Source: Claveliimonas bilis
Lineage (GTDB): Bacteria > Bacillota > Clostridia > Lachnospirales > Lachnospiraceae
DNA length: 64,000 nt
Direction of reading: 5' to 3'
NCBI RefSeq assembly: GCF_020892095.1
Contig: NZ_AP024845.1
Span: forward strand, 992,001-1,056,000
Shown: positions 1-27,299 of the stretch, in pieces
Numbering within the stretch: the stretch's first letter is position 1
How the letters are laid out: each line of letters begins with the position of its first letter
Translations under genes and position numbers: made by a program
Notes under the pieces: model-generated
What the model was told of the DNA's origin: nothing
Databases searched by the model: none
What the model saw: the letters and a program-made list of their open reading frames with translations, nothing else

Positions 1-1829
1 AGCACCCCGCCGCAGGAGGCCATCATCAGGCCGATCCACAGCGCCATATCGCTGCCGTCCCCAGTCTGGGGGCTGCCGGTGTCGCCGGAAGGATCCTGCT
101 GACCCTGCGAATCGGATGAATCGGTCGGATCAGTCGAATCGGTTGGCTCTCCGGTTCCCGCTGCAGGGATGGCTTCAGTCTGCACATATTCACAGACTGC
201 ACAGCCGCGCTCTCTGGAACCCGCTTCAGTCTCGGTGGCCTCTTTGGTTACTTTCCAATCGCCGTAGGTATGGTTTGCCACATTCAGCTTTTCACCGCAG
301 GAGCATTCCTGCCAGTGGTCGGTTTCGTCATATTTCCACGTTTCATCATGGATGCCGTGCTCATGCCCGATCTCCGGGATGATTTCAACCTGCACATATT
401 CACAGACCGTACAGCCGCGCTCTCTGGAACCCACTTCGGTTTCAGTGGCCTCTTTGGTTACTTTCCAATCGCCGTAGATATGGTTTGCCACATTCAGCTT
501 TTCACCGCAGGAGCATTCCTGCCAGTGCTGGGTTTTGTCATATTTCCATGTTTCGTCATGGATGCCATGCTCATGTTCAAGCATCGGAATGGTTTCGGTC
601 TGAACATGGTCGCAGACCGTGCAGTCACGTGCTTTGGAGCCTTCTTCGGTCTCGGTGGCCGGCTTCGTCACTCTCCATTCGCCGTAGGCATGGTTTGCCA
701 CATTCAGCTTTTCACCGCAGGAGCATTCCTGCCAGTGCTGGGTTTTGTCATATTTCCATGTTTCGTCATGGATGCTGTGTACATGGACCGGAATCGTCTC
801 TTTCTGCGTATATTTGCAGACGGAGCAGGTGCGCTCCCGGGAACCCTCCTCCGTTGTGGTGGCCGGCTTCGTCACGCTCCATTCGCCGTAGGCATGGTTT
901 GCCACATTCAGCTTTTCACCACAGGAACACTCCTGCCAGTGATTAGTATCATCATATTTCCATGTTTCGTCATGGATGCTGTGTACATGGACCGGAATCG
1001 TCTCTTTCTGCGTATATTTGCAGACGGAGCAGGTGCGCTCCCGGGAACCCTCCTCCGTTGTGGTGGCCGGCTTCGTCACGCTCCAATCGCTGAAGTCGTG
1101 GTCGGCTACAGTATCTTGATTAACTTCTTTGCAGTAGCGGCATTCCTTCCAGTGTGTAGTCGAACCGCTTCTCCAGTCGTCGGTATAGTAATGTTGGTGT
1201 TCCCTGTATCTATCAATCTGCTCATAGCCGCAGGTAAGGCACTGCCTTTCACATACGTCATACTTCGTATTTACATCATAATAGATCAGCTCCCATTCGC
1301 CGAAGTTATGGGGGCTCTCTTCAGATTTCTCTCCGCAGCTGCATTCTTTCCAATGCTTGGTTCCATTATTTTTCCAGCCGCCGAAGCTGTGTTCATGGGG
1401 GGGAGTAGGCCCCTCTCCGCCGCCGGTATTGCCGCCGATTGCCCAGTCGCCCCAGGCGTCTCTCTTCCATACGGTATAATAGCCGTCCGGATCGCCGGTA
1501 AGGTAAATCTGTCTGGCCCGTACTTTAAGCGTATACGCATCCTTCGACTGAGTGATATTCTTCGAATCGAAAAATACCCACCTGTCTATCTCAACGCTTT
1601 CTGTCTGGAGTACCTGACCGTTCAGTACCAGCTGCGCCTCATACTCAAGATACGTGCTGCCTGATGCGTTGGCAGGTTTATCCCACATTACCTGGTTTCC
1701 GTATCCCGACCAGCGGGGATTTTCCGGTACATATTGCCCCGCAGCAAACACTGTCGCCGGCAGTATTCCTACCACCATGCATAAGGACAGCAGCAGCGCG
1801 AGCAAACTCTTTTTTCGAAGCATCTTCAT
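1..1829 (-). CDS. Cysteine-repeat cell-wall surface protein (C-terminus beyond window)
   Basis: Starts at ATG 1829 after AAGGAGAG and stays open to base 1, about 609 codons. It opens with a signal peptide (LLALLLSLCMVVGILPATVFA, cleaved before AGQY), followed by a non-repetitive domain of about 110 residues. Then come units of 68-70 residues with a fixed pattern: H-x-x-T-W-K-Y-D, HWQECSCGEKLNVANH, YGxW, VTKxAT and C-x-V-C, so four Cys and several His per unit. Near the window edge there is a Ser/Asp/Thr-rich linker, an SPQTGD motif resembling an LPxTG sorting signal, and a hydrophobic stretch. I infer a sortase-anchored wall protein whose Cys/His units may bind metal. It lies 20 bp after the frameshifted gene at 1850-2484 and shares that gene's promoter. 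The function is unknown. Long open frames on the opposite strand are by-products of the repeats. Confidence 0.82.
   Translation of the reverse strand, partial: MKMLRKKSLLALLLSLCMVVGILPATVFAAGQYVPENPRWSGYGNQVMWDKPANASGSTYLEYEAQLVLNGQVLQTESVEIDRWVFFDSKNITQSKDAYTLKVRARQIYLTGDPDGYYTVWKRDAWGDWAIGGNTGGGEGPTPPHEHSFGGWKNNGTKHWKECSCGEKSEESPHNFGEWELIYYDVNTKYDVCERQCLTCGYEQIDRYREHQHYYTDDWRSGSTTHWKECRYCKEVNQDTVADHDFSDWSVTKPATTTEEGSRERTCSVCKYTQKETIPVHVHSIHDETWKYDDTNHWQECSCGEKLNVANHAYGEWSVTKPATTTEEGSRERTCSVCKYTQKETIPVHVHSIHDETWKYDKTQHWQECSCGEKLNVANHAYGEWRVTKPATETEEGSKARDCTVCDHVQTETIPMLEHEHGIHDETWKYDKTQHWQECSCGEKLNVANHIYGDWKVTKEATETEVGSRERGCTVCEYVQVEIIPEIGHEHGIHDETWKYDETDHWQECSCGEKLNVANHTYGDWKVTKEATETEAGSRERGCAVCEYVQTEAIPAAGTGEPTDSTDPTDSSDSQGQQDPSGDTGSPQTGDGSDMALWIGLMMASCGGV
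160..1180. repeat. Tandem coding repeats, 210 and 204 bp
   Basis: The anchor TGGTTTGCCACATTCAGC begins at 271, 481, 691 and 895, and a diverged copy sits near 1099. The period is 210, 210, 204 and about 204 bp. Neighbouring copies are nearly identical at the DNA level, so recent duplication or gene conversion is likely and copy number may vary between strains. Confidence 0.85.
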
Positions 1830-1849
1830 TCTCTCCTTTACAAATAGAA

Positions 1850-2484
1850 TCAGTTTTTGGTATTTCCGCCGTCCGGTCCGGACGGATCCTTTCCTCCGGC
1901 TGGCGGGTTATCCTGTGCCTTCCGCTTTTTCCTGTATAAGAATACAAGCAGCAGCGCCAGCAGGACAGCCGCCGGTATCGCGGCCAACAGAACGATGTAG
2001 ACGGCGTTTCCATCCTTTTCGTCTCCCGGCAACGGGTCGGGTTGGATGATTGCAGAAACGGAGAAGGGGGTATCGGAACCGAGTACGGCATACCGGCCCG
2101 GGCCGCCGGCTTCAAAGACCAGGCTGCCGTCTTCGGCCTTTGCCTCTATGCGCTCCGGCTCGCCGTCCACCCGCACCGCCTGGTAATGGGCGTAGCCCTC
2201 CAGATGGCTGTTCATCGGGATGCGCACCGTCATGGCGCTGTCTTTGATTTCCACCGGCTCCCCGTTCTGGCGGATGCTGATCTCATACACCGACAGCAGG
2301 CCGTCCAGCGCTTCTTTCAGCTCCGGCTTCTCTTCAAGCAGGCTTTTAAGCCGGTTTCTGTCAGTTCCAGCTTCAGATTTGTTGGCGCAGCCGGTACACC
2401 CGCCGCAAAAGCGGTCATTGGCAGCATCCCCAGCAGCATACACAGGGAAAGCAGCAGCACCGTCAGTTTCCTTTTTGCTTGCAT
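1850..2484 (-). pseudogene. Frameshifted signal-peptide / C-terminal TM surface protein
   Basis: ATG 2484 follows a strong AAGGAGGAG site and encodes a signal peptide (LTVLLLSLCMLLGMLPMTAFA) closely similar to that of the next gene. This frame stops at 2317 after 55 residues. The next frame carries the rest: a soluble module of about 110 residues (from RLKSLLEEKPELKEAL to GGPGRYAVLGSD), a TM helix (IVLLAAIPAAVLLALLLVFL), a KKRK stop-transfer signal and a Gly/Pro/Asp-rich tail ending in TGA at 1852-1850. The two frames meet around 2335-2350. I read it as a broken or internally deleted gene; a sequencing error is possible. It is first in an operon with the repeat protein and is driven by the palindrome promoter at 2515-2592. 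Confidence 0.65.
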
Positions 2485-2514: not shown

Positions 2515-2592
2515 ACTGTAGCGCCTTTTTCGGGATTTGTGCAGGTCGCTTTAGCGCCAATTTCCCAAAAATTATGTGGCGCACCTGCGCCA
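2515..2592 (-). promoter_or_regulatory. Palindrome-type promoter 1, for the surface-protein operon
   Basis: Reading leftward: TGGCGCAGGTGCGCCA (2592-2577), a half-site TTGGCGCTAAAGC, a -35-like TGCACA, a 17-bp spacer, and TACAGT (2520-2515) as -10. The start codon at 2484 follows. The same block recurs at 3241-3317 and, inverted, at 3476-3552. The arms GGCGCA/TGCGCC are perfect inverted repeats, as expected for a dimeric activator site. Confidence 0.7.
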
Positions 2593-2629
2593 ATCCACAT
2601 TTTTCGCGGAAATCATGGGGAAATACCGC

Positions 2630-3139
2630 TTATCTCATTAGATCCTGATATTCTGGGTCTGTTGTCCGAATCCCCCACGCCAGTTCCCAAAGCTTTTCAT
2701 CTTCGGAAAGGACATAGCACCTGCCATCCACCCCTTCGAACCGGCGTTTATCAAACCAGAAACTGTAGGTATCCCCTTGCGCCGTCACAAATGTAAGCCC
2801 CCGGGTATCTGTAGAGACGATGGGTGACTCGGATTCCACCGACACATCCCGCAGTGCCTGCAAGACCCCGGCGATCACCGTTTCGTCCCTTGTCTCGTAG
2901 TCCGCCGCCGTCTCTGTCCAATGGTGAAAGATCAGTTCCACCGGCAGTTCCTCATGGGGCAGCTCCAAAAGCTCCCGCTGCTTTTCGGTGCAGTAAGCAA
3001 AAAGGGAGTCCCCTTGGTATGCCGGGGACGAAGTCTCTGTCGGGGTCGGAGTCTCTGCCGGAAGCGCAGGATCTGATGCTGCACACCCCGCCAGCAAACA
3101 GATGGCTGCCAGAAGTGCCGCTGCCCCTCTTTTTTTCAT
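2630..3139 (-). CDS. Secreted lipoprotein, paralogue of the 5931-6380 gene
   Basis: 169 residues, starting at ATG 3139 behind AAAGGAGG. The N-terminus is a lipoprotein signal with lipobox LAGC (Cys 19), followed by a Pro/Thr/Ser/Glu spacer and a compact domain of about 120 residues: YCTEKQRELLELPHEELPVELIFHH, then DETVIAGVLQALRDV, an FWFDKRRF motif and a C-terminal WELAWGIRTTDPEYQDLM. The gene at 5931-6380 has the same order of motifs (YCTESQQEF, EILQALRET, FWFDENRF, YPEYREAM), so the two are paralogues. The protein should be lipid-anchored outside the membrane. I do not recognise the family and propose no function. It has its own palindrome promoter 170 bp upstream. Confidence 0.8.
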   Translation of the reverse strand: MKKRGAAALLAAICLLAGCAASDPALPAETPTPTETSSPAYQGDSLFAYCTEKQRELLELPHEELPVELIFHHWTETAADYETRDETVIAGVLQALRDVSVESESPIVSTDTRGLTFVTAQGDTYSFWFDKRRFEGVDGRCYVLSEDEKLWELAWGIRTTDPEYQDLMR

Positions 3140-3240
3140 TCGTGCCTCCTTTCTTCTGTCCTGGTCTCATGAATCGCTTTGCTGCTCGGCCTGTAACGCC
3201 AAAGGCGATCCAAACTCTTTTTTTGTCCTTTTATGGTTTT

Positions 3241-3317
3241 ACTGTATCGTTTTTTAAGGATCTGTGCAGGCTGCTTTCGCGCCAATTTATCAAAAAACGC
3301 ATGGCGCACCTGCGCCA
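3241..3317 (-). promoter_or_regulatory. Palindrome-type promoter 2, for the lipoprotein gene
   Basis: TGGCGCAGGTGCGCCA at 3317-3302, then half-site TTGGCGCGAAAGC, TGCACA as -35, a 16-bp spacer and TACAGT (3246-3241) as -10. The palindrome-to--10 gap is 55 bp, against 56 bp in the copy at 2515-2592. About 85 bp are alike in the two copies, which points to duplication or strong selection. Confidence 0.7.
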
Positions 3318-3475
3318 ATCTATTTTTTGTGTGAAAATTCCAAAACACCTTGATTGTGCAAAAGGGATTGCCGATCATGACAGGCGGCCTGCTACGTCCT
3401 GTAAACTTAAGAGGTATTACACTCTGTACAGGGTGGATGGCCTCAATTTTCCGCTCAAAGCTTCGTTTCTCAAAA

Positions 3476-3552
3476 TGGCGCAGGTGCGCCACAGTGTTTT
3501 TTTAGTTTGGTGCTAAAGCGGCCTGTTAAAAACACCAGCTTCCTGCTATGAT
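3476..3552 (+). promoter_or_regulatory. Palindrome-type promoter 3, inverted, for the membrane-protein gene
   Basis: TGGCGCAGGTGCGCCA at 3476-3491 is followed by a degenerate half-site TTTGGTGCTAAAGC, a weak -35 in CCTGTTA, a 17-bp spacer and TATGAT (3547-3552) as -10. The gap from palindrome to -10 is again about 55 bp. Because this -10 covers the ATG at 3548, that ATG cannot be the start of the next gene. Confidence 0.65.
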
Positions 3553-3664
3553 AAAAGATAAAAAACGAAAAGTTCACATGATGGAAGGCCGGCCAGGACA
3601 CAGAATGTCCAAAAAGCTTCAGCTGGCCTTTTCGGAACGCAGGATCAGAAAGAGGATATATCGT

Positions 3665-4179
3665 ATGTATGCAAGGTTCAGGCCGTACCATCTCATTGGC
3701 GCCATCGGTGGGTTCCTCACTGCCCTCACCGCCATTATTAGCTTGGCAGTTTCCACATCGTACTACATAAGCGCAGAATGGGTCATTATTGTAAACATGC
3801 TGCTCATTGGCTCCAACGGGTTAATCGCAACCTATTTCTTTGGCGCGTTCAGCGCTACCCGTGACAGCCTCATTAAAGTAGGCAGCCTGATCGCGGGGAT
3901 AGGTCTTGGCTTTAATATCTTGATCTCAATTCTCCAGATGGCGGGGTGTACGTTTTTGTTCTGGCTCTTCTTGGGGCTCTCGTTATGATGGCAGGGGTTG
4001 TGATCGCCTGTATCAAATTCATCATGCTCTTCCAGAGAGACGCTTTTGTCGTGGTGTTCTGCGTGTTTATTTTCCTGGGGCTTCTGCTGTCTTTATTCTG
4101 GACGTGGGCAAGCCTGATAAGCGGCGCTGGGCTGGGTGGCCTGCTGATTTATTTTTACGTCCACAATATCACCTACTAG
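3665..4179 (+). pseudogene. Small multi-span membrane protein, apparently frameshifted at a G run
   Basis: ATG 3665 follows AAGAGGA at good spacing. The first frame has TM helices (LIGAIGGFLTALTAIISLAV, VIIVNMLLIGSNGLIATYFF, a third from VGSLIAG) and stops at 3988. A second frame from about 3946 to 4179 continues as hydrophobic helices (VFVLALLGALVMMAGVVIA, FVVVFCVFIFLGLLLSLFW) and ends LLIYFYVHNITY. The frames join at GCGGGGTG (about 3940-3948); one extra G would make a single protein of about 170 residues with five or so helices. The second frame could start at GTG 3946, but no ribosome site is visible, so I prefer a frameshift (mutation, slippage or sequencing error). No family recognised. 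The palindrome promoter at 3476-3552 drives it. Confidence 0.6.
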
Positions 4180-4209
4180 ACAGCTTCTCTCATTCAGGAT
4201 ATTTCCTTG

Positions 4210-4242
4210 TTTACCGCGGCTGCACCGTGTGGCTGCGGTAAA
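4210..4242 (+). terminator. Hairpin after the membrane-protein gene
   Basis: TTTACCGC (4210-4217) pairs with GCGGTAAA (4235-4242). The stem is good, but there is no long T tract on the plus side. Confidence 0.45.
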
Positions 4243-4402
4243 ATGGCATGTGCGGGCGCAAAAAACCGGTAGTTCCCGGATGCGGAACGCAGCTCCAAAA
4301 ATATACGGTTTTATCCAGGAGAATCCCTGGTTTAGGTCAAACAGGAAGGATTGTATATTCCGCAAAACGTCAGCGAAAAAAGTCTCTAACCGACCGAAAT
4401 CG

Positions 4403-4431
4403 TTGAAAATCCATGCCGTTTATAGTATAAT
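4403..4431 (+). promoter_or_regulatory. Near-consensus sigma-A promoter of the LuxR-type gene
   Basis: TTGAAA (4403-4408), a 17-bp spacer and TATAAT (4426-4431), 38 bp before the start codon. It lacks the TGGCGCA palindrome of the other three promoters here, so the regulator is probably expressed constitutively. Confidence 0.7.
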
Positions 4432-4468
4432 AATCTATAATTGTACCATTGCGGAGAAAGGGGGTGGA

Positions 4469-5911
4469 ATGGGACGTATGGTAATAATAAAGAAAAGCTT
4501 CACAAATCCAAAATCCATTTATGCGATTCTGCTGCTTGGTATTTTTACTTTTCTATTTCTTGGCGCCGAGTACCTATATGTGAATATGATCTCGCTTACG
4601 GCAGGGGAAGAAAAAACGGTGATTGCGCAAAACTACGCGTTAGGAATAAGCGCTGTCGGTTTTTTGCTCTATCCGCTGTTTCATCGCTTTTTGAAAAGGC
4701 GGGTACAAATCGTTGGACTTTTTATCCTTGCACTAGCAGCGGCAGTATGCAATTTTTTGGTTCAAAAACATGTTTCTTATTCGTCCACTCTGCTCTCCGG
4801 AATGGCATTGTTCCTGTTTCTGGGGATATTGGGAAGCGCGGCCCACTACCTGTTTTTCAAACTGGCGAAGGATCGCACCCATCTGGCGCGTATGGTTGGT
4901 ATCTCCTATGCCCTTGGGATCTTCCTGCAGTTTCTAAATAACAATCTTGTGGATCTGGAAACTGCGGAAGCCTTGATACTTTCACTCTTTGCCCTTGTAG
5001 CGTTAGCGCTGTTACTGAAGGCAGAAAGGCTTTGCCGCCAGGAAAATGCAGAAGCGGAAGAACTCCCGTCTCCCGCCATAGAGGAGGATGGGAAGGGAAC
5101 CCGAAAGAAGATCGCCGCCGGCGGACTCCTTGCACTGCTTGTCATCCTGATGGCATGTATCTTCAGTACGCTGGACAACGCGGTCACCATGCATCATACA
5201 GCAGGCACTGACATCGGGCAATGGCCGCGGCTTTTGCTGGCGGTAAGCGGCCTTTCTGCCGGCTTTCTTTTTGATATCCGAAAGCGGAAATTTATGGCCA
5301 TGATGATGTACTGCGTCATGCTGATGTCCGTCATCTGTTTGGTAGTACTCAAGCTGGGCGGCCCGTTTTTGATCGGCCTGATCGTATTTTATCTTTCGGC
5401 TGGATTTTTTGTGGTATTCTTCACCACCAGCTTTCTGGATTTTGCCCGCCATATGCCCACGCCAGCGCTGTGGGCCGGTATGGGGCGCGCCATGAATAAC
5501 GTGAGCGCCGCTTTGCTTACCAACGCCTCTGTAGCGTTGCTTGTTTCTGACAGCAATGGCATGGCATCCATCATTCTGGCACTGGTCCTGTTTGTGGCCG
5601 TCAGCGTAGTCATCTATCTTTATACAGCCTGGATGCCGGTTTCATCCGGCACCCCCAAGGATATCCCGACAGACCTGGACCCTCAGGAAGCGTTCCGTCT
5701 TTTGTCGGAGCTGTTTATCCTTACGCCCAAGGAAACCGAAGTATTTGACAAGCTGGTCAATTCAGAGGAAAGTATTCAGGAGATCGCAGATGGACTGTAT
5801 CTATCCCGGCGAACCTGTCAGCGGCATATCGCGGCGATCTATGAGAAAGCGGGTGTAAAATCACGCATGGGATTGTACCAGCTCTACATAGAAAAACAGC
5901 GCAGGCTATGA
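4469..5911 (+). CDS. Membrane-bound LuxR-type transcriptional regulator (12-TM plus HTH)
   Basis: ATG 4469 follows AAAGGGGGTGGA and gives 480 residues. Residues 1-400 form about a dozen hydrophobic helices arranged like an MFS carrier (from SIYAILLLGIFTFLFLGAEY to VAVSVVIYLYTAW). The last 70 residues are a LuxR-type helix-turn-helix: LTPKETEVFDKLVNSEESIQEIADGLYLS, then RRTCQRHIAAIYEKAGVKSR. MFS-like regulators with a C-terminal LuxR HTH are known, mostly as orphans, in gut Coriobacteria and Clostridia. The likely role is to sense a small molecule or membrane state and bind DNA while membrane-anchored. It sits among genes that carry a shared palindromic promoter, so it is the natural candidate to bind that site. 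It is followed after 19 bp by a lipoprotein gene. Confidence 0.85.
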   Translation: MGRMVIIKKSFTNPKSIYAILLLGIFTFLFLGAEYLYVNMISLTAGEEKTVIAQNYALGISAVGFLLYPLFHRFLKRRVQIVGLFILALAAAVCNFLVQKHVSYSSTLLSGMALFLFLGILGSAAHYLFFKLAKDRTHLARMVGISYALGIFLQFLNNNLVDLETAEALILSLFALVALALLLKAERLCRQENAEAEELPSPAIEEDGKGTRKKIAAGGLLALLVILMACIFSTLDNAVTMHHTAGTDIGQWPRLLLAVSGLSAGFLFDIRKRKFMAMMMYCVMLMSVICLVVLKLGGPFLIGLIVFYLSAGFFVVFFTTSFLDFARHMPTPALWAGMGRAMNNVSAALLTNASVALLVSDSNGMASIILALVLFVAVSVVIYLYTAWMPVSSGTPKDIPTDLDPQEAFRLLSELFILTPKETEVFDKLVNSEESIQEIADGLYLSRRTCQRHIAAIYEKAGVKSRMGLYQLYIEKQRRL

Positions 5912-5930: not shown

Positions 5931-6380
5931 ATGAAGAGGATTAAAATTACCGTTTTGCTGATTTTATTGTGCGTACTGGCGGGGTGTTCCCCAAAAGACA
6001 CATCGCTTCGGGCCTATTGCACCGAAAGCCAGCAGGAATTTCTGGATCAGTCGCTGGAAGAGCTGCCGGTCGCGCTTACCTATCATCACAACGATAACAT
6101 CCTAGGACGCTACGAAACGACGGATGAAGAAATCATCTCCGAAATCCTGCAGGCATTACGGGAAACGACCATTGTATCCAAAGCTTTCAGCGGCTCTACA
6201 GACAGCCGGATCCTGGAGTTTGAGACAGCGGATGGGGATACCTGCCTCTTCTGGTTTGATGAAAACCGGTTCCATGGCGCCGGCGGAACATCCTATGTGC
6301 TTTCCGGCGACGAGGAGATTTGGGATCTGGCGCGGAAAATCCAAGAAACATATCCAGAGTACAGGGAAGCGATGGAGTAA
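5931..6380 (+). CDS. Secreted lipoprotein downstream of the LuxR-type gene
   Basis: 149 residues, ATG 5931 behind AGAAAGGGA. The lipoprotein signal has lipobox LAGC (Cys 19). The mature part matches the 2630-3139 protein along its length: YCTESQQEFLDQSLEELPV, EIISEILQALRET, CLFWFDENRF, YVLSGDEEIWDLA, YPEYREAM. It lacks the Pro/Thr linker of its paralogue. Co-transcription with the regulator suggests a link between this extracytoplasmic protein and sensing, but that is inference; no family was recognised. Confidence 0.8.
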   Translation: MKRIKITVLLILLCVLAGCSPKDTSLRAYCTESQQEFLDQSLEELPVALTYHHNDNILGRYETTDEEIISEILQALRETTIVSKAFSGSTDSRILEFETADGDTCLFWFDENRFHGAGGTSYVLSGDEEIWDLARKIQETYPEYREAME

Positions 6381-6497: not shown

Positions 6498-7736
6498 TCA
6501 TTTATACTCTTCCCCTTCCACAATGGGCATTGTGATGTTTTCCATGGCTTCTCGCATTTTGGGGTGCCGGATAACAAAATGAATCGCCGGCGTTTTTTCC
6601 TTGGACACGATCGCCCAGCTTCCCTCATGGATAAGAATTTGGATATGGCGGAACGCAGGAGATTTGTTTTCCTCAATATGGTAGTTTTTATGCATCTGAG
6701 AAAAGCGCTTCATCATCTCCAGATGTTCCCGATATTGCTCATAGGTGTAGACGATATCCTCTTCATAAAAAGCGCCAGCCAAGGATAGCGTCATGGGGTA
6801 TTGGGCAAACTCATCTTTTGAAAAGTTGGGATACGCTTCAAAGATGGAGTCGTGGGATAGAATTTCTTCCGTCAATTCCCTTTGAAAAGCAATATGTTCC
6901 ATGATCCTGATCTGGTTTTTCTCCGAAACACGATTGTCCCTCAAAACCTGAAAGACAAGCTCATCGTCGGCCGTGTAGAGCGGCAGGGATGACAGGATTG
7001 ACCGCCTTGTACCTTCTGTTTTTGCATCAAGCTTTAAAAAGGCATCCGCCGTAAATTTTTGAGGATCGGACAGCTTGCGCTGCCCCTTTCGGATACGGGA
7101 CAGGTACGAAGGATCGTAGCTCAAAAAACGCGCAAGATCGGATACGCTGACGGACAATGTCTTCAGCAGGGTATCAAAATTCAATCTGAGTTTTTCTATC
7201 TCGATACCAGGCCCCTGTGCCTGCTCGGAGAGCGCCTGCCGAACCGCTTCCTCTTCCATCTCCCGAATTTTCTTTTCGGCTGCTATCGCCGCAATCCCCT
7301 TGGCTAAATTCTCCAATTGCCTGGAATCTGCTTCCGGCACACGGTCTCCAGAGCGATATCGGCTAATTGTAGCTGTGGACAGGCCGGAGCGTTCCGCCAG
7401 ATCCCTGGCGGAGCATCCGGTCCGCTCCATATATCGGTTTAGAACGTCTTTGAACTCCATAGTAACTCTCCAATACCCTTTATCTCCCAGCCGCTCTGCG
7501 TCCGGTCTCTGTGCCAGGATCAGCAGGGCATTATTGGCAGTATAGCGGTCAAACCGTGCCTGTACGTCCAGATACTGCTGAAATTTCCCACTGTCCGCAG
7601 CCACTTCATTCGTGATCTGCTCGGACAGCTCATAACAGCGGTTCCGATTGTTTTTGCTCTTCGCAATAAAAGCGGCTTTTTTATCGTCCTGCGGCACTGC
7701 CGATACATTCAACATGGAATCAAAGTTATTCTCCAT
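6498..7736 (-). CDS. Fusion of an LtrC/ArdC-like N-terminus with an XRE-type HTH protein
   Basis: 412 residues. Residues 1-90 (SFDS-like start, then FQQYLDVQARFDRYTANNALLILAQRPDA) match the start of the LtrC-like/ArdC_N proteins of Tn1549-type elements. From Met 93 the protein is something else: an XRE-type HTH (VLNRYMERTGCSARDLAERSGLSTATISRYRSG, residues 98-130), a second HTH-like segment (VSVSDLARFLSYDPSYLSRIRKG, about 197-218) and a C-terminal domain of about 180 residues I do not recognise. The ATG of Met 93 (7460) keeps its own ribosome site, GGAGAG 7 nt upstream, so the second part was probably an independent gene joined by recombination and may still be translated separately. It is the last gene of the relaxase operon, 5 bp after pcfB. 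Confidence 0.7.
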   Translation of the reverse strand: MENNFDSMLNVSAVPQDDKKAAFIAKSKNNRNRCYELSEQITNEVAADSGKFQQYLDVQARFDRYTANNALLILAQRPDAERLGDKGYWRVTMEFKDVLNRYMERTGCSARDLAERSGLSTATISRYRSGDRVPEADSRQLENLAKGIAAIAAEKKIREMEEEAVRQALSEQAQGPGIEIEKLRLNFDTLLKTLSVSVSDLARFLSYDPSYLSRIRKGQRKLSDPQKFTADAFLKLDAKTEGTRRSILSSLPLYTADDELVFQVLRDNRVSEKNQIRIMEHIAFQRELTEEILSHDSIFEAYPNFSKDEFAQYPMTLSLAGAFYEEDIVYTYEQYREHLEMMKRFSQMHKNYHIEENKSPAFRHIQILIHEGSWAIVSKEKTPAIHFVIRHPKMREAMENITMPIVEGEEYK

Positions 7737-7741
7737 ACTCT

Positions 7742-8656
7742 CTACCTCTCTTTCGATTTTCTTGGTTTTTTCCGGTTCTGCGGCTGCGTATGCTGCGTCT
7801 GCCTTGTCCTGCCGGGTTTTTCTTTTGAAATCGGTTCCTTTCCCTTGCTTTCTGCCTCTTTCTTCCTCGCTGCCTGGATCTCCTTAAGCTCTTTCCGCAC
7901 GGACGGCTTTTTCGGTACGGACGGAGCATACAGCTTAGAAGTACCCTCGGCGGTTTTGTCTGGCCTTACGGAGATAGGCTCGGACAGACGGGATTTCTCT
8001 GTCTTTGCCAATGAGGGGTTTTGCTGTTTTCCCTCTTTCTTTACCGGTTCTCCCAGCAGTTCGTCCATGAGCCGGTCCTCCTGTGATTTTTCCGGGTGCA
8101 CCTGCTGTGGGGCTGCCGGTGCTTTTCCGGATGTTTTTCTCCGATCCGATGGCTGTTCCGCCCTCTGCTTTTCCTTTCCGGTATCCGGCTCCGCCTTTCC
8201 AGAGGATGTCTCCCGGCTCTTCCCGTGGGATTTTTCCTCCCGGCTCTTTTCTATCTCTGTCTTGATCTGCGCCGCTTCTGTAACAGAAGCAAACTTGAAC
8301 CGCTCCACGATCCGGTTGATCCGGGGAGCGTCTTCTTCCTTGACCACCACATCGACCATCCCGTCTATGCTCCCTTTCGGGTTCCGCACTGCACAGTATA
8401 AGATCCCATACCGCTTTGCCTCTGTGACAAATTGCTTCAAATCACTCTCTTTCACAGAATAGACGGTCAGTGGTTTTCCGGAGCGGACAAGGGTTTCCAG
8501 TCTCGCCCGTCCCTTGGTCTTTTTCTGCTCTTTCAGTACTGCATACAGAAGCACCGCAAGCTGTTTTGCCCCGGCTCCTGTGATCTTTAGGGCTGCCTCA
8601 CCGACTTCCAGCGACATGCGCACCACCTGGTCAGCGGCCTCACCTGATGTGTTCAT
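7742..8656 (-). CDS. PcfB-like conjugation accessory protein (DUF3801)
   Basis: 304 residues. The N-terminal 140 residues match the PcfB/DUF3801 family: AADQVVRMSLEVGEAALKIT, then KQLAVLLYAVLKEQ, KGRARLETLVRSGKPLTVY and YGILYCAVRN. The rest is low-complexity, charged and Lys/Glu/Arg/Pro-rich, probably disordered. In pCF10, PcfB is one of the conjugation proteins that helps bring the relaxosome to the coupling protein. The start overlaps the relaxase end by 17 bp, so the two are translationally coupled. Confidence 0.8.
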   Translation of the reverse strand: MNTSGEAADQVVRMSLEVGEAALKITGAGAKQLAVLLYAVLKEQKKTKGRARLETLVRSGKPLTVYSVKESDLKQFVTEAKRYGILYCAVRNPKGSIDGMVDVVVKEEDAPRINRIVERFKFASVTEAAQIKTEIEKSREEKSHGKSRETSSGKAEPDTGKEKQRAEQPSDRRKTSGKAPAAPQQVHPEKSQEDRLMDELLGEPVKKEGKQQNPSLAKTEKSRLSEPISVRPDKTAEGTSKLYAPSVPKKPSVRKELKEIQAARKKEAESKGKEPISKEKPGRTRQTQHTQPQNRKKPRKSKER

Positions 8657-18377: not shown

Positions 18378-20192
18378 TCATAGTTTAAGTGATTTTGTCT
18401 TTGCTTCTTCGTAGCATTTCGGGCAGAGAGCCAATGACTTCCGCCTTTTCAGTAACATCAGTTCATCAAATTCATTATCAGCGTTCAAATCTTTTAAGTG
18501 CTTTACATGGTGCATATACACTTTCACGGGGTTTGCTCCGCACATCTCGCATTGTCCGCTTTTTAAACGTCCTGCAAGACTATTCGGTTTTATCTGCCCT
18601 CTGTATTTCGGCATAATGTCTACAAATTCAGGTGCGATATTGTCATTACGCCTAAATCCTTCATTGTAAAACTCACACCGCTTTGTTCCACTCTTGGTTT
18701 TGTAATCTGCGCCAAAGTCGCCCTTTACGCTACGGTATTTCTTATACATCTTCATAACAGAAGAATTATATTTTGCCGCCAACGTCTTTAAACAGCTTCC
18801 ACGCATGATAGAATGAAATTTCCCCAGATTGCATACATTGATTGCTAACCTGTAATAATTGTACAATCCTCTGATTTCAGAATTATATTTACTGATGATT
18901 GCCACATCGTCTAATGGCATAAGCGCCCCTCTGTGGAGTGGCTTCCAAATCTCTTTGCCGTTTTCGTCTTTTTTGATTTTAAACGCACCGTATTCGTGCA
19001 GTTTCGCAATCCATTTTTCTTTCGGCATATATAACTGCACTTTTCCATACCACACCCGTTGCAGACCTTTTTTCGTCCGCTTTGTGTCCTGACTTCTTGA
19101 TATTCTTATGTCGTATCCAAGATACCGCACCTTTTCAGAGGAATGGGTAACGTGAGTTTTCTCCTCCGACATTGTGAGATTTAGCTTGTCTTTTAGAAAT
19201 ATCTTTACCTGTTCCTTGATATTTTCAGCATCCTGCTTTGAACCTGTTATTGAAATCAGGAAATCGTCAGCGTAACGGTTGTATTGAAGTCTTTTGTAAT
19301 TCTCATCCATCTCGTCTAAATGTGGTGTGGACAACATCACTTTCCTTGCTTCTTTAAATGCTGCTAGGTTTGCTTCTGTGCGCTCTATTTCCAGATTTTT
19401 CTGCGCTTTCCGATAAGCCCAGCGTACCTTATCATGGTCTTTGTGGACTTTACGGCTTCTTGTATCGCCTTTGTCAAAACTCTTTTTCATCCTTGCCATG
19501 AACTCATCAAGTTCATTCAGATAGATGTTGGCAAGTATCGGACTGACACCGGAGCCTTGTGGACTGCCGGAGTACGTTTCATGGTATGTCCACTGTTCCA
19601 TATATCCTGCCCTTAGAAACTTCCACATCAGCGATATGAACGCTTCATCTTTTATGCGCTTTCTCAAAAGCTGTATTGTGATATGGTGGTCGAAGCTGTC
19701 AAAACAAGCCTTAATGTCTCCTTCGATTATCCACTTTGCACCAGTGAACAGCGTTACGATTTCTTTTAACGCTGTGTGGCAACTTCTTTTCGGTCTGAAA
19801 CCATGTGAATTATCAGAGAATGTCGGCTCATAGATTGCTTCAAGTATCATACGGACAACTTCCTGTAACAGTTTATCGTCCGTTGACGGAATCCCCAATG
19901 GGCGCTTTTTACTGCTGTTTTTCTTCGCAATATAAACACGCCTTGCAGGGTTCGGCTGGTATGAGTGGTCTCTCAGCTTCTGAATGAGCTTTTCAATGCG
20001 CTCCATGCTCATACCGTCAAGAGTGAATCCGTCTGCACCTGCCGTCATGCTCCCCTGAGAGGTCGCAATATTCTGGTATGCAAGCAGATAGAACTCTGGG
20101 TTGTACAGGTTACGGTATAATCTCTCGTACCTGTACTCTTTGTTTTTTGCTTTTTCACTTAAACTTTTCAATACATTTTCGGGACTTCTCAT
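18378..20192 (-). CDS. ltrA: Group II intron-encoded reverse transcriptase/maturase with HNH domain
   Basis: 604 residues from ATG 20192 behind GAGG. The reverse-transcriptase domain has RPLGIPSTDDKLLQEVVRMI, NSHGFRPKRSCHTAL, IEGDIKACFDSFDH, GSPQGSGVSPILANIYL and the active site YADDFLI. The maturase/X domain follows (AIISKYNSEIRGLYNYY). The C-terminus has an HNH-type endonuclease with two zinc ribbons (CEMCGANPVKVYMHHVKHL and CPKCYEEA). All three functions needed for splicing, target cutting and reverse transcription are intact. It lies in domain IV of the intron and is longer than LtrA-type proteins without the insertion after QGSG (FDKGDTRSRKVHKDHDK). Confidence 0.92.
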   Translation of the reverse strand: MRSPENVLKSLSEKAKNKEYRYERLYRNLYNPEFYLLAYQNIATSQGSMTAGADGFTLDGMSMERIEKLIQKLRDHSYQPNPARRVYIAKKNSSKKRPLGIPSTDDKLLQEVVRMILEAIYEPTFSDNSHGFRPKRSCHTALKEIVTLFTGAKWIIEGDIKACFDSFDHHITIQLLRKRIKDEAFISLMWKFLRAGYMEQWTYHETYSGSPQGSGVSPILANIYLNELDEFMARMKKSFDKGDTRSRKVHKDHDKVRWAYRKAQKNLEIERTEANLAAFKEARKVMLSTPHLDEMDENYKRLQYNRYADDFLISITGSKQDAENIKEQVKIFLKDKLNLTMSEEKTHVTHSSEKVRYLGYDIRISRSQDTKRTKKGLQRVWYGKVQLYMPKEKWIAKLHEYGAFKIKKDENGKEIWKPLHRGALMPLDDVAIISKYNSEIRGLYNYYRLAINVCNLGKFHSIMRGSCLKTLAAKYNSSVMKMYKKYRSVKGDFGADYKTKSGTKRCEFYNEGFRRNDNIAPEFVDIMPKYRGQIKPNSLAGRLKSGQCEMCGANPVKVYMHHVKHLKDLNADNEFDELMLLKRRKSLALCPKCYEEAKTKSLKL

Positions 20193-20779
20193 AATGCCTC
20201 ACGCACCTTTCCTTATTATTTGTATTGAAGAAAGACTGTCTCCCTTCGCCATGTGGACGGCTTTCCCGTCCTCGGACTACTACGGAGACTCTGTTGCCAT
20301 AGTAAATATTCAGAGTCACTTTTCTCATAGCACTCATAGCCGATTTTCGGCATTTTACCTTAGGCAATCCCCGTTTAGAACTGTAATAACATAAGCCTGT
20401 TATGATTTCGGATGTGACGTTCGTCGTTTTCCATTATCCTATGGCTGATTTACTCTGGGTATCTTGTGGATACGCATGGCCGACTCATATCCACCAGAGT
20501 ACATGCGAGTATAACTTCCTTACGCATGGAGCAACATTTTGCCCAATCTCCGACTGTCATTCAGGCAGTTTAGCTTTCATCCTTATTCATAACTTTTCGC
20601 CACTACCACGCAAACACTTTGGAAGTTTCCGTGTTTCGTGCCCTCCGACATGCTACACTCCCCATCGGGTTTCCCCTTTTGGATAAGTCGGGTGACGATA
20701 GGGTGCGGATTATTCCGCTTTGATACCTTGCCCTATTACTTGCTCAAGGTAAGATTATTACAGCCCCTTACGGGCGCAC
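20193..20779 (-). ncRNA. Group II intron ribozyme, 5' domains (I to start of IV)
   Basis: This 587-nt stretch has no coding frame and begins with the GTGCGCCCGTAAGGGG consensus of bacterial group II introns. It must contain domains I-III and the exon-binding sites. The exon bases next to the junction (ATGGTG) are the expected IBS1. Confidence 0.75.
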
Positions 20780-23700
20780 CACCATAGAATTGCTGACCGG
20801 GGTTCCGGTAGAAAAGATCACGCCTTTCCCACCCGTGATCTCATCCAGATAGCGGCACTTCATATACATATCGGAAGATTTCTGCGCCTCGGTCTGTGCG
20901 ATCCCGCCTACATTTCTCATCTTGGTAGTCAGGTAGAGGTTCTTATAGTTGTCCGCTTCATCCACAAACAGGCGGTCAACGCCCAGCTCTTCAAAGATAA
21001 TCATATCATCTTTCCGGCTCTGGTCATGGAGCCTTTTCAGACGTGTTTCCAGTGACTTCTTCGTCCGTTCCATCTGCTTGACCGTAAAGCGGCTTCCCTG
21101 GATCTTCTTCGCCTCGGCGATTCCCGCCATGATCTCGTCAATCTCCTTCTCCAGCATACGCTCCTGCCGCTCCACACTTAAGGGGATCTTCTCAAACTGG
21201 GAATGCCCGATGATCACAGCGTCTATATCGCTGGTAGCGATCCTGCCGCAGAACTTTTTCCTGTTTTTCTTCTCAAAATCCTTCTTTGTTGCCACCAGAA
21301 TATTAGCTGCCGGATAAAGCTGGAGCCACTCAGCGGCAAATTGCTCGATGATATGGTTCGGCACCACTACCATAGATTTATTACACAATCCAAGCCGCTT
21401 GCATTCCATAGCCGCCGCCACCATCGTATAGGTTTTTCCTGCGCCCACAACATAAGCCAACAGGGTATTCCCGCCATAGATGATCCGTGCCACTCCGTCC
21501 TTCTGGTGTTTCCGCAGGGAAATCTCCGGATTCATGCCATAGAAATGCAGGTGGCTCCCGTCATATTCCCTCGGCCGGATCGCATTGAACCGTTCATTAT
21601 AATCTGCGGTCAGCCTCCGCCTGCGCTCTGGATCTTTCCAGATCCAATCCTGAAACGCCTGCTTGATCAAATCCTGTTTTCCCTGTGCAATGGCAGTTTC
21701 CTTTTTATTCAGAACCGGTTTCCGCTTTCCTTCCTCGTCCTCCACATAATCAAACACACGGGTATCCCGCAGATTTAGCGTATCTTCTATGATCTTATAA
21801 GCGTTTACCCGGTTCGTGCCATAGGTATTATTGGCACGGGGATTTCCCCGGTCAATGCTCTTCCCTTCGATATTCCATTCCCCGGTATGCCGGGAGAAAT
21901 GGACTTTGATCTTCCACTGAGAATAATTCGGCGTCTGCAAAAGTTCAAACATAAAGTCGGCAATATCCGACTCCGGTATCCATGTGGCTCCCAGACGCAC
22001 ACTGATCTCAGAAGCAGTCAGATCCTTTGGCTGTACTTTTTCCAGTGCCTCAACATTGCTCCGGTACACCTCGGAGATCTCCGCCGCCCGTTTCGCCTCC
22101 CGCAGTTTCTGGCGCACGTTGCCGGAAAGGTATTCGTCCTCGGATACAAACCTGGGATGTTCCAGATCCTCAGACTCCGGCAGACGGAAGATCACGCCCT
22201 GTAATTCCTGTTCCACTTCCTGGGCGCTTTTCCCGGTCAGAGAACACAGATACTCCATATCCACGCAGGCTTTTTCGGAAAGAGACAACGATAAAGCCTC
22301 ACTTGCGGTATCTACTTTCGTTACCGTTTCGTGAGGCTTTATCGTTCGCTTTATAAACATATCTGCCTTCCGCTCCAGCGTTCCATCCTCCGCCACAATC
22401 TCAAGGGAACAGAGAAGGGGATAACTGCCGTCGTCAGAAAATGCTATACTGTTCGCCCTGGAGTTCAGCAGTCCATATTTTCTCTGGAACAGATCATACA
22501 GATGGTTCAGCTTTTTCTGCTGTTCTTCAATCTCTTCATCGGGATACCCTTCCGCCTGGTAAGCGATCAGTTCTCTGGTGCAGTCCCGGATGGCGATCAT
22601 CCCCTTCACACGGTTCTGTGCTGTCACGGACAGTTCCACCGGTTTCATGCGGCTGTTTTCCCGGTAATAGATCTTCCCGTCATAGACCGTATAGGAAAAG
22701 TTCGCCACGGACGGATCAGCCGGGATCGAATGATCCTCTTCCTCCACCAGCTCCTCCACCTCATAATCCGTGATCTCCGCCTCAAGGTTTTCTACTGCCT
22801 GCTCCAGAAGTTCCTTTAAATCCCTGTCCGGATAAGGTTTGCAGATCAACTGGGGGCCATAAGGCCCGGACACGATCTCCTGCTCTCCCAGTACCATTTC
22901 CGGGTGCTGCTGAAAATAGGGATTGATACTGACCACCCGGTGTCGGCTCTCGCCCTGTTCATTTATATGGTCGTTTTCATAGAGGCGCTCCACTTCCACC
23001 CAGTCCGGCAGATCCACATTTAAGTCTCTCGGTGTCTCCCTCTTCTGGAAAAAGAGAATATCCGTGTTAATCTCTGTCCCGGCATTGGCAAGAAAAGCGT
23101 TATTGGGCAGACGGATCGCCCCTAACAGGTCGCACCGCTGGGCGATATATCTCCGCACCCGGTCATCCCGCTTATCCATTGTCCCGCCGCTAATCCCGTT
23201 GGACGTGATCAACGCAAGCACACCCTTCGGCCTCGTCTTATCGATTGATTTGGCGATAAAATAATCGTGGATCAGAAAGTTGTATTTATCGTATTTCCTA
23301 TCCAGTACCTTATAACTTCCAAAAGGCACATTTCCTATGACTACATCAAAAAAGCTGTCCGGAAGATCTGCGTCCTCAAATCCCTGGACTGCGATGGTGG
23401 ATTTCTGGTAAAGCTGCTGTGCGATCCGGGCGGAAATGCTGTTGATCTCCACACCATAAACCCTGCAGTCGGACAGGCTCTCCGGCTTCCGTCCGATAAA
23501 ATTTCCTATTCCACAGCTTGGCTCCAGAATGTTCCCGGATTTCAGCCCCATGTTCTCCAAAGCCTGATACATGGAACTGATGACCACCGGCGGCGTATAA
23601 AAGGCGGTCAGCGTAGACTGTCTCGCAGCGGTGTATTCTTCTTCCGTCAGAACGGTCTTTAATTCCAGATATTCCGTTGACCAGGAAGATTTCGTCTCGT

Positions 23701-26323
23701 CAAAAGCGTCAGACAACCCGCCCCAGCCAACATATCCGGCAAGGATTTCCTGTTCCTTGGGCGTGGCAAAGCGGTTTTCTTCCTCACACTTTTTCAATAG
23801 CTGGATCGCCATGATGTTGGCACGGAACTTTTCTTTTGCGGTTCCCGCCCCTAAATGCTCATCCGTGATACGATACTGGCTGCGGTTTTCCAGGGGAACC
23901 TCCGGGTGCAGATCAACCCCTCTTACTCTCCCGGCAGGTTTCTTCTGTGTCCATGCCGGGGACAGATCCTCCAAAACTTCTTCCGGTTCTTTCTCAAAAG
24001 GATTGTCCTCCGGTTTTATTCCGGTAAATCCGTCCTCCTGCTCCTGTATCATTTCCTGTGTGAGAGCCGGTTCTTCCCTGTCTTTTTCGGTTGGTTCCTT
24101 TGAAGGCTTCCTGTCCGCTTTCAGATGGTCATTCGCCGGATTTTCCCGTACCCGGCGGTCAAACACCTCCCTCGGCATTTCCTCTGTGAAAAGCGGATAC
24201 ATCTGGTCACGCAGAACTACCATCTCATCAGAGATAAAGTCGATGGAATATTCCTTTGTGCCTATTGTGACAATCGTATCCACCTGCAGGTCATAAGCCT
24301 GTGAGGTTTCTGCCTGCTGTGGCATTTTCTCCCGGCTCTGTGCCGGAACAGGCTCCAGGGGAGCCTGCGTGTTTTCTCTTTCGGCTGGTATAGAAGTAAA
24401 CAAACTGAATACTCCGTCCCGGTAATCCGTAAGGTCTTGGTACGCCTGCTGCATGGACGGGTATCGCTGATCATAATCTGCGGTTCCCGCAAGAACCTCT
24501 TCCATCATGGAAAGGATTTCTTTTACCTGTTTTGGATCATCAAGCTGCGGACGGATCTGGTCTATCGCACTATGATAATCTGAGCCATACGGATAAGGAC
24601 GTAAAAACGTTTCCGGCTGATTATAAAAAAAGTCGTAAATGTTACCTGTCAAAGTAGTTTTTTCATACTCCGGAATATACTCCAGTTCCTTCTCTGTCAT
24701 ATACCGTCCGACAGCGATCAGCTCATCAATCCTCTTTGCAACCGCCGTCCATTTCAGAGTAGTCTCATAATTCTTCCACTGGATGGTATAACCTTTCGCA
24801 TTTGTATCCTGGTGAAATCTTTCTCCTAAATAATCAGTTACAGATCCTCCCATGCCATATTCCTGCTTTAAAAATTCTGCTTTTTCCTTATTGCTGTGTC
24901 CTTGCAGGAAATAGGAGTAAATTCTGTATTTTCCATGTTCAAAGGAAGAACCGGTCTGCAGAGCATGATCAATGATCCCCTGCGGCATAGAAAAAGCAGG
25001 AGATCCCTCTCCTGCCAGTTCTTCTAATAATGACTGTTGTTCTGCCACCGTTGGCTGTGGCTCTGCAATCGGTTCATGCGCTTCATCTTTCGGCTGTGAT
25101 TCCTGTCCGGTTAACTGTAGATCAGCTCCTTCATTACGATTTCTTCCGCTGCCTGCCGGATGTTGTTCATCTGCTGTACCCACGCCATCTGGTCTTTCGC
25201 TTTCAATTCCTCTGTCACGCCCCAGGCTGCTTTCATCTGCCCGGTCAGAACTTCCATCCTCTCCTGTGCTTCTCTCTGCACTTCGTTCAGATGACGGTTC
25301 AGTTCTCCTTTTGTCAGCAGGTTCAGATACATCCCGTACCGGTAATTTTTCAGATAAGACTGACGGAGGGAAGCGTACTTCCCACGGTGTACTTCCGGTT
25401 CGTCCGGCACGGTCAGATCCGGAAGTAAATAATCGCCCTGTCTGCTGTATGTGATCGCTCTCATGTGTAACGCCCCTTTCTGCACTCTGTTCTCCGTTTT
25501 CGTCTTCATTATATCTGCCTGCCCCTCTCCCGGCAAACATACGATTTTTCTTTCTCTCTTCTCTTCTCAGCTTATTGACCGTATCGGAAATCTCGGCTAA
25601 TGCCATTTCCGACACATCACTGGCCGCAACGCCAAACAGGTTGACCATTTCCGGTGTATTAAAATCCGTGATATTCCGGAAGTCTTCTTTGTCCAGATAC
25701 AGCCCGGTATCCACGCCGCACCGTATCATAACCATGTAAGCAACACTGGCCGATAAAAGCTGGCGGGCCTCTACCTCCACGTTGTACTCATCCACCTCTT
25801 CCAGATAACTGTTTTTTCGTCCAGAGATCAGATCCGGGAGATAGTCCGCAAGATTATCTTCTGCCGCAATCTTTGCAGCCTCCAGTATGGTTTCCGCAAA
25901 TCCTGTAACGGACTCATCCACACCAAAGGCATTTGCAAGGGTTTCCCGCACATCCGGCTGATATTCTTCCGGCACTTCCCACAATGGCACTGGCCGGAGC
26001 AATCGGCGGTAACGCCCTTCCTGTGTATCTGAAACATCATAGTAATATTTCAACCTCAGTTTCGGGCTGTCTTTATCAAAAACTGCAATCCCTTTGGAAT
26101 CCCGCTTTACCCACCGCCCAAATTTCTCATTCCAAACTTTCATGGGCAGCACTGCGGACGCCTCCGGACGCTGTGCGTAAACCAAAACCTGTTCATCAAA
26201 GGGCAGACGGAAGTTCCGGCAGGCAGAACGCAAAAAAGAAAGCCAGTTTTCCGGACTGGCAGTTACTTCTTTTACAGTCTCTACATAGAGGTCTGTGATC
26301 AGATCATATTTCTTCTTTGCCAT
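20780..26323 (-). CDS. Giant DNA methylase/SNF2 helicase of the element, exon 1 (residues 1-1848)
   Basis: Together with 16540-18273 this encodes about 2425 residues. Start ATG 26323 lies inside the preceding gene. The N-terminal 150 residues (SPENWLSFLRSACRNFRLPFDEQVLVYAQRP) resemble the LtrC-like domain of these elements. A low-complexity acidic region follows. Around residues 930-1150 lies an N6-adenine methylase-like fold (ILEPSCGIGNFIG; VIGNVPFGSYKV in place of NPPF; ALITSNGISGG). From about 1590 the SNF2/DEAD helicase core begins: LRKHQKDGVARII, Walker A VVGAGKTYTMVAAAM, and DEADNYKNLY (motif II). Proteins of this type are among the largest in Tn1549-like elements and are thought to protect or remodel incoming DNA. 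The NVPF motif is unusual and could mean the methylase is inactive. Confidence 0.88.
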
Positions 26324-27209: not shown

Positions 27210-27299
27210 CTATTTCTTCCGGTTCCGCAGGTTCAGCCAGATCAGGGCTCCTGCGATAAACGCCACTAAGAGGACTGTGATCCACATCTTTGCGCTCAT
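27210..27299 (-). CDS. 29-aa single-pass membrane peptide coupled to the adhesin
   Basis: The adhesin stop overlaps the ATG as ATGA (27299-27296), and AAGGGGAAGATGAGG lies just upstream. The peptide is MSAKM, a hydrophobic helix (WITVLLVAFIAGALIWL) and a basic end NLRNRKK. The layout of tight coupling, TM helix and positive tail looks real. The function is unknown. Confidence 0.5.
   Translation of the reverse strand: MSAKMWITVLLVAFIAGALIWLNLRNRKK

Follow-up and report, generated by a model that had tools for sequence, protein, structure and literature searches.

Does a membrane-held LuxR-type protein control the three look-alike promoters that lie beside its gene, and can its DNA targets be recognised from sequence? 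This question was raised by a 64,000-nucleotide stretch of Claveliimonas bilis DNA (bases 992,001-1,056,000 of a genome of 3.04 Mb in one contig; hereafter the window), in which three predicted promoters (P1, P2 and P3) share a palindromic layout close to a gene at 4469-5911 for a protein with about 12 transmembrane (TM) helices and a LuxR-type helix-turn-helix (HTH). Our analysis suggests that this protein is quite probably a one-component membrane activator, which would bind tandem boxes and recruit RNA polymerase at P1-P3, with its activity set by a signal through the 12-TM domain.

Tandem boxes at three promoters

A perfect 16-bp palindrome, TGGCGCAGGTGCGCCA, was found ahead of each of the three promoters without a mismatch (Table 1). 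With up to three mismatches allowed, it had six strand-wise matches in the window, where 0.30 were expected by chance. A genome-wide search for TGGCGCANNTGCGCCA that tolerated at most two mismatches gave ten sites, namely the three perfect ones in the window and seven with two mismatches. The gap between palindrome and -10 was 56 bp at P1 and 55 bp at both P2 and P3. Each distal palindrome was followed by a second, degenerate copy on its promoter side, which ended where the -35 hexamer starts (start-to-start distances and -35/-10 spacers in Table 1). P1 and P2 were identical at 67 of 84 aligned positions, and P1 and the inverted P3 at 55 of 84. The two-box pattern TGGYGCNNNNGYGNC-N15-19-TGGYGC matched three times genome-wide, each time at one of the promoters of this locus.

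The sequence-only reading had placed the 16-mer at these three sites, 55-56 bp ahead of a -10 and with the third copy inverted, all of which was borne out; its figure of about 85 bp conserved between the first two copies was fair, because 67 of 84 positions agree. It had also described a half-site adjoining the -35. The element does adjoin the -35, but it is a second, degenerate palindrome and not a half-site. A genome-wide search, which it had proposed for the 16-mer with its gap to a -10, was made with the two-box pattern and returned only this locus in the bacterium's own genome.

The regulator

The C-terminal GerE/LuxR HTH of the regulator (PF00196, residues 417-471) scored 32.3 bits in Pfam against a cut-off of 23.5. 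NarL/GerE/LuxR-type HTH proteins bind dimeric palindromic sites, and residues 417-467 of the regulator aligned with members of this type (GerE 1fse, expectation value, E, 1.3e-06; ComA 2krf; VpsT 3kln); unlike these proteins, the regulator carries a membrane domain ahead of the HTH instead of a receiver or a cytosolic ligand domain. In a low-confidence AlphaFold model (mean pLDDT, the per-residue confidence score, 52.5), 12 long helices lay ahead of the HTH, and a 19-residue hydropathy scan returned 11 segments at threshold. Sub-threshold Pfam matches were MFS_1 (23.1 bits, cut-off 33.4) and Acyl_transf_3 (24.2, cut-off 31), and no autoinducer-binding domain was matched in Pfam at E 0.05. The conserved membrane-domain stretch FSTLDNAVT..H..G.D.GQWPR is a candidate sensing site. 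The regulator's own promoter matched the consensus at 11 of 12 positions and had no palindrome. Both the earlier description of a LuxR HTH protein with 12 TM helices and that of a near-consensus promoter lacking the palindrome agree with these results.

Box arrays beside diverged regulators

Homologs were sought by protein searches of the phylum (398 genomes), the class (391) and two families (18 and 70), which matched 2, 7, 3 and 4 genomes, and by profile searches of 381 and 321 genomes of the class (matches in 8 and 7 genomes); the homolog search E limits were 1e-20 to 1e-25, and the matched genome sets overlap. Together with the loci from the genome-contig search described below, these were grouped by eye into nine lineages: the window; L045; L046 with L058; L034 with L044; L048 with L059; L014 with L015; L060; L061; and G606. 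Tallies by lineage leave out L010, L047 (the same record as L015) and a truncated second regulator copy in L045 (8996-9754, C-terminal half only). The groups listed between L045 and L015, both included, were 52-59% identical to the window regulator, L060 was 33% and L061 27% identical.

A box array was present beside the regulator gene in eight of the nine lineages, with two to four boxes in each. Boxes were spaced 31-35 bp start to start (32 bp in both L046 and L058), with the exceptions of 44 bp for the outermost L060 box and 43 bp in L061. In 15 listed promoters, for which the spacer was supplied by us, the last box ended 22-24 bp ahead of a -10 matching four or five of the six consensus bases. 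Early tandem scans missed L045, L046 and L058; a looser scan recovered L045, and the others were found by eye.

Adjacency is weak evidence, with the boxes of P1-P3 lying 1-2 kb away from the regulator gene, and some other regulator might bind them beside a membrane LuxR that is a mere neighbour. This is highly improbable, because the boxes adjoin the membrane LuxR in eight of nine lineages and track its HTH, and because only two proteins genome-wide passed the cut-off for GerE, the one family examined: the regulator and a 208-amino acid (aa) frame elsewhere (a third match fell below the cut-off). When the bacterium's genome was searched with the regulator protein, nothing but the regulator itself matched at E 0.001.

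Behind the boxes of most of the diverged homologs lay a conserved protein some 108 aa long (Table 1); the two copies scanned (L034 6469 and L045 1066) had no Pfam family.

Half-site and recognition helix change together

The half-site TGGCGC occurred in the window, L045, L046 and L058, together with the recognition helix SRRT(C/L)QR. In L034, L044, L048 and L059 the half-site was TGGCGG and the helix S(K/R)RT(V/L)ER, with E in place of Q. L060 and L061 had GGTCAC or GATCAC, where SRRVLQR (V in place of T) goes with GGTCAC, while L014 and L015 combined GTTTAC with SRTALYK. Across eight lineages, half-site similarity was correlated with that of the HTH (Mantel r 0.65, permutation p 0.0003) and of the recognition helix (r 0.59, p 0.007). 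It did not follow membrane-domain similarity, taken over window residues 109-395 (r 0.19, p 0.19). Since diverged relatives keep the same layout with a matching change of word, the DNA targets of the membrane LuxR regulator can probably be read from sequence. Such a layout across strongly diverged members, with half-sites that track the HTH, would offer a cheap prediction of the controlled genes.

The palindromes could also be regarded as intrinsic terminators that insulate neighbouring units, and a terminator scan listed all three, with a T-run after each. Against this stand their fixed distance upstream of their own -35, a promoter-side T-run that begins four or five bases past the stem, the L014 linkers without a T-run, the words that change with the regulator HTH, and a degenerate second copy without evident use in termination; the terminator explanation is very unlikely. 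A T-run between distal and proximal box was seen by eye in most lineages (for example, window 3492-3507), L014 excepted, and could bend the DNA or be fortuitous.

As a tentative extension, which we consider possible and somewhat short of an even chance, membrane LuxRs may follow a readable operator code. In a palindrome array anchored at the -35, with boxes about three helical turns apart, the inner bases would be dictated by a small number of residues in the recognition helix (Q with C and E with G at half-site position 6), and the membrane array would tether and activate whichever cargo operon a mobile element had placed behind the promoter. If true, the code would allow regulons to be predicted from sequence for many unassigned membrane LuxRs of gut bacteria.

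Chance controls and searches elsewhere

The combined scan required a palindrome, a second copy 30-36 or 41-45 bp further on, at least 3 matches at the -35 and at least 4 at the -10. With a cut of 24, set after the scores had been seen, the regulator loci gave 22 hits, all on arrays and in 20 distinct places because L016 repeats window DNA; other hits scored 20-23. At the same cut, the control stretches (207,002 strand-bases; highest score 23; controls L035-L037 overlap the window from about base 4000 on, boxes excluded) gave no hit, and shuffled sequence gave three in 3.8 million strand-bases.

The exact bare palindrome was present in 17 of the 398 genomes of the phylum, and the 16 besides the own genome had one copy each. 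In 30 of the 32 strand views of these 16 genomes, the best partner box at 28-46 bp had at most 8 of 14 arm matches, and the two exceptional views had 10 at 45 bp and 9 at 41 bp. At the window promoters the partner box had 9-10 of 14 at 32-33 bp. The bare palindrome is thus also met away from regulators of this type, though not in the two-box layout. Of the finding that the sequence-only reading had named as counting against it, the motif far from homologous regulators, the part concerning the bare palindrome was thus observed, in 16 genomes, and the part concerning the two-box layout was not.

The regulator protein had no match in the plasmid collection, the promoter region had none in the plasmid or phage collections, and IMG/VR held no relative of the regulator by protein or by alignment. 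The two-box pattern was met in 69 IMG/VR contigs, of which none had a regulator homolog in the stretch and none a -35/-10 at the limits used, and these were therefore counted as chance.

Proposed action of the regulator

We infer that the HTH would bind as dimers to palindromic boxes spaced by about three helical turns, in which a perfect distal box is paired with a degenerate proximal one that abuts the -35 position. Such a pairing would suggest cooperative loading. Counting the -10 as -12 to -7 puts the centre of the proximal box near -44 and that of the distal box near -77, which is typical of activators contacting RNA polymerase; the polymerase may be recruited in a class II-like position. 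The poor -35s and the upstream box positions fit a dependence on an activator, and three such promoters would serve the surface-protein operon, the lipoprotein and the membrane protein. The regulator itself would be made constantly from its near-consensus promoter and would stay in the membrane while bound to DNA, with a signal sensed through the 12-TM domain setting its activity. Activation of the three units by the membrane LuxR, as put forward in the sequence-only reading, is supported at the level of sequence: homologs down to 27% identity keep the layout, and the half-sites track the HTH.

The direction of control is not readable from boxes alone, and a proximal box that abuts the -35 position would also suit a repressor released on a signal. 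With the -10 and the start free of boxes, the -35s poor and the characterised relatives activators (PMC9734109), repression by the membrane LuxR is improbable.

Several results weigh against the activator. A box array was looked for near the regulator of G606, a distant homolog, and none was found; G606 has the L060-like helix SRRVLQRHV, yet no paired GGTCAC was beside it. The correlation between half-site and HTH was drawn from few lineages and HTH types and may in part be inherited. The -35 matched the consensus at one of six positions in L045, L046 and L058 and at two of six in P3, L014 and L015, so these -35s were placed by the -10 and spacing only; the same six arrays were missed by the combined scan through its -35 limit and were read by eye. 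A general promoter consensus scan of the region was at chance level (5 found, 4.2 expected), and the -35/-10 assignments therefore depend on position and conservation. The L048 regulator gene (6765-7859) has no N-terminal part and diverges from the others in its C-terminal frame; that of L059 (6-1145) begins at the contig end and has in-frame stops. With incomplete or interrupted genes that look decayed or cut, the pair are weaker as witnesses, though the arrays beside them are intact. Among close relatives of the window, L013 has 28 bp between the P2 boxes instead of 33, and L006 has an altered -10 at P3.

Near-identical carriers and changing cargo

In genome contigs from 84,980 species, ten loci were matched by the regulator; best-segment identity was 94-100% at eight of them and 52% at two. 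The eight near-identical loci are spread over six named genera. P1 was present in all eight loci of the near-identical type that reach it, the window included (the L010 contig ends before the promoters), and P2 and P3 in seven of eight. The remaining locus, L007, has one exact palindrome only (5154-5169), in a hybrid promoter with the upstream flank of P2 fused to P1 from the palindrome onward and the intervening lipoprotein lost. This looks like what recombination between the P1 and P2 copies would give.

With the close agreement of P1 and P2 and this hybrid in L007, the three copies might be taken for a recent promoter duplication that brought no shared control. P3, however, is inverted and less alike, and seven other lineages show the layout again, with identical or changed words, which leaves duplication without shared control extremely improbable.

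The cargo behind P1 changes among these carriers. In the window and in L006, L007 and L013 it consists of related surface genes, and in L008, L009, L011 and L012 of a row of FHA, PP2C and trypsin-FHA genes (domains named from the L045 copies), with a fragment of a Ser-Thr kinase gene at the stretch edge. Genes of this row also lie behind the boxes of different regulators in L045 and L046 (FHA protein 83% identical). The same P1 ahead of different cargo was counted in favour of the activator, and a constant promoter of this kind suggests how mobile elements could plug new surface or signalling genes into an existing membrane-gated switch. A possible fourth promoter, TGGCGCCGGTGCACCA-32-TGGCGCTGATGTGACC, was noted in L011 with a scan score of 22, inside the chance range; its -10 is 333 bp ahead of the annotated start of a gene encoding an FctA pilin domain.

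Relation to known systems

LuxR proteins with 10-12 TM helices have been reported as an activator family in Eggerthella and other Coriobacteriia, with 74 counted in 2022, and DadR, HcdR and CadR of Eggerthella lenta activate adjacent genes by genetics (PMC9734109); Unk-9R of Gordonibacter is a second example (PMC11585353). Like these, the window regulator has a C-terminal LuxR HTH, an N-terminal domain of about 12 TM helices and a gene beside its presumed targets. It is likened to them by architecture and, unlike the Coriobacteriia members, its type is found in Mordavella-, Lachnoclostridium- and Gemmiger-type genomes; the Eggerthella members go with catechol enzymes, and the cargo here is of the envelope and surface, behind the operator array proposed here. 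The main text of PMC9734109 contains 'palindrom' 0 times and 'binding site' twice, once concerning a cumate repressor, and the PMC11585353 passages contain neither term. Our literature search, within the texts covered, found no description of DNA sites for the family. The architecture is thus already known, and the tandem-box operator layout is, as judged from this literature, what is added here.

Among better-known activators, the lux box of LuxR quorum-sensing proteins is centred near -42.5, and the proximal boxes resemble it as palindromes adjoining the -35. The window regulator differs in having no autoinducer-binding Pfam match and two to four boxes per promoter. In CadC and ToxR a single TM helix goes with an OmpR-type HTH; the proposed one-component, membrane-held activation is shared with them, and the roughly 12 helices and LuxR-type HTH are not.

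Genes behind the promoters and possible mobile element context

The first gene of the P1 operon is broken: the frame with the signal peptide stops after 55 codons, and the remainder is in another frame. The sortase-anchored protein of this operon extends to the left of the window, and two further genes with a sortase-type ending follow it (L016 7333-9225 and 9723-11807). The P2 lipoprotein is 44% identical to the one directly behind the regulator. At P3, the open reading frame (ORF) start at 3548 falls within the -10, and a start at 3578 or later is likelier.

Table 1. Coordinates of boxes, predicted promoters and genes (window positions unless a locus is named)
Feature	Position	Strand	Details
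P1 distal box	2577..2592	-	Perfect palindrome TGGCGCAGGTGCGCCA; pattern match
P1 proximal box	2544..2559	-	TGGCGCTAAAGCGACC; start-to-start 33 bp
P1 predicted promoter	2515..2543	-	-35 TGCACA 2538-2543; 17-bp spacer; -10 TACAGT 2515-2520
P2 distal box	3302..3317	-	Perfect palindrome TGGCGCAGGTGCGCCA; pattern match
P2 proximal box	3269..3284	-	TGGCGCGAAAGCAGCC; start-to-start 33 bp
P2 predicted promoter	3241..3268	-	-35 TGCACA 3263-3268; 16-bp spacer; -10 TACAGT 3241-3246
P3 distal box	3476..3491	+	Perfect palindrome TGGCGCAGGTGCGCCA; pattern match
P3 proximal box	3508..3523	+	TGGTGCTAAAGCGGCC; start-to-start 32 bp
P3 predicted promoter	3524..3552	+	-35 position TGTTAA 3524-3529; 17-bp spacer; -10 TATGAT 3547-3552
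Membrane LuxR-type regulator	4469..5911	+	480 aa; ~12 TM helices (to ~residue 388); GerE HTH 417-471; recognition helix SRRTCQRHI
Regulator promoter	4403..4431	+	TTGAAA-17-TATAAT; without box
P1 first gene, broken	1847..2484 (body ORF 1850-2509)	-	Signal peptide and body in different frames
P1-operon surface protein	1..1829	-	624 aa; sortase-anchored (SPQTGD); extends left of window
P2 lipoprotein	2630..3139	-	169 aa; lipobox by eye; no Pfam family
Lipoprotein directly behind regulator	5931..6380	+	Lipobox by eye; paralog of P2 lipoprotein
P3 membrane protein	3578..3988	+	Cut short relative to 200-aa relative in L011 (5125-5727)
~108-aa protein copies	L014 7936; L034 6469 and 3338; L045 1066; L046 14973; L059 1435; L061 ~364-699		
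Group II intron reverse transcriptase	18378-20192		
Large protein	20768-26323		Eco57I methylase and ResIII domains
1185-aa protein	27296-30853		Ten SpaA-type domains

The locus looks like part of a mobile DNA element, at which an integrase, a relaxase and DUF3801 were found; no conjugation ATPase was among nine more window ORFs that were scanned, from a list of 35 with at least 250 aa. To the left of the surface operon, L016 contains a MazF/PemK-like gene and a tyrosine integrase (3166-3768 and 1769-2845), which may lie close to an end of the mobile element.

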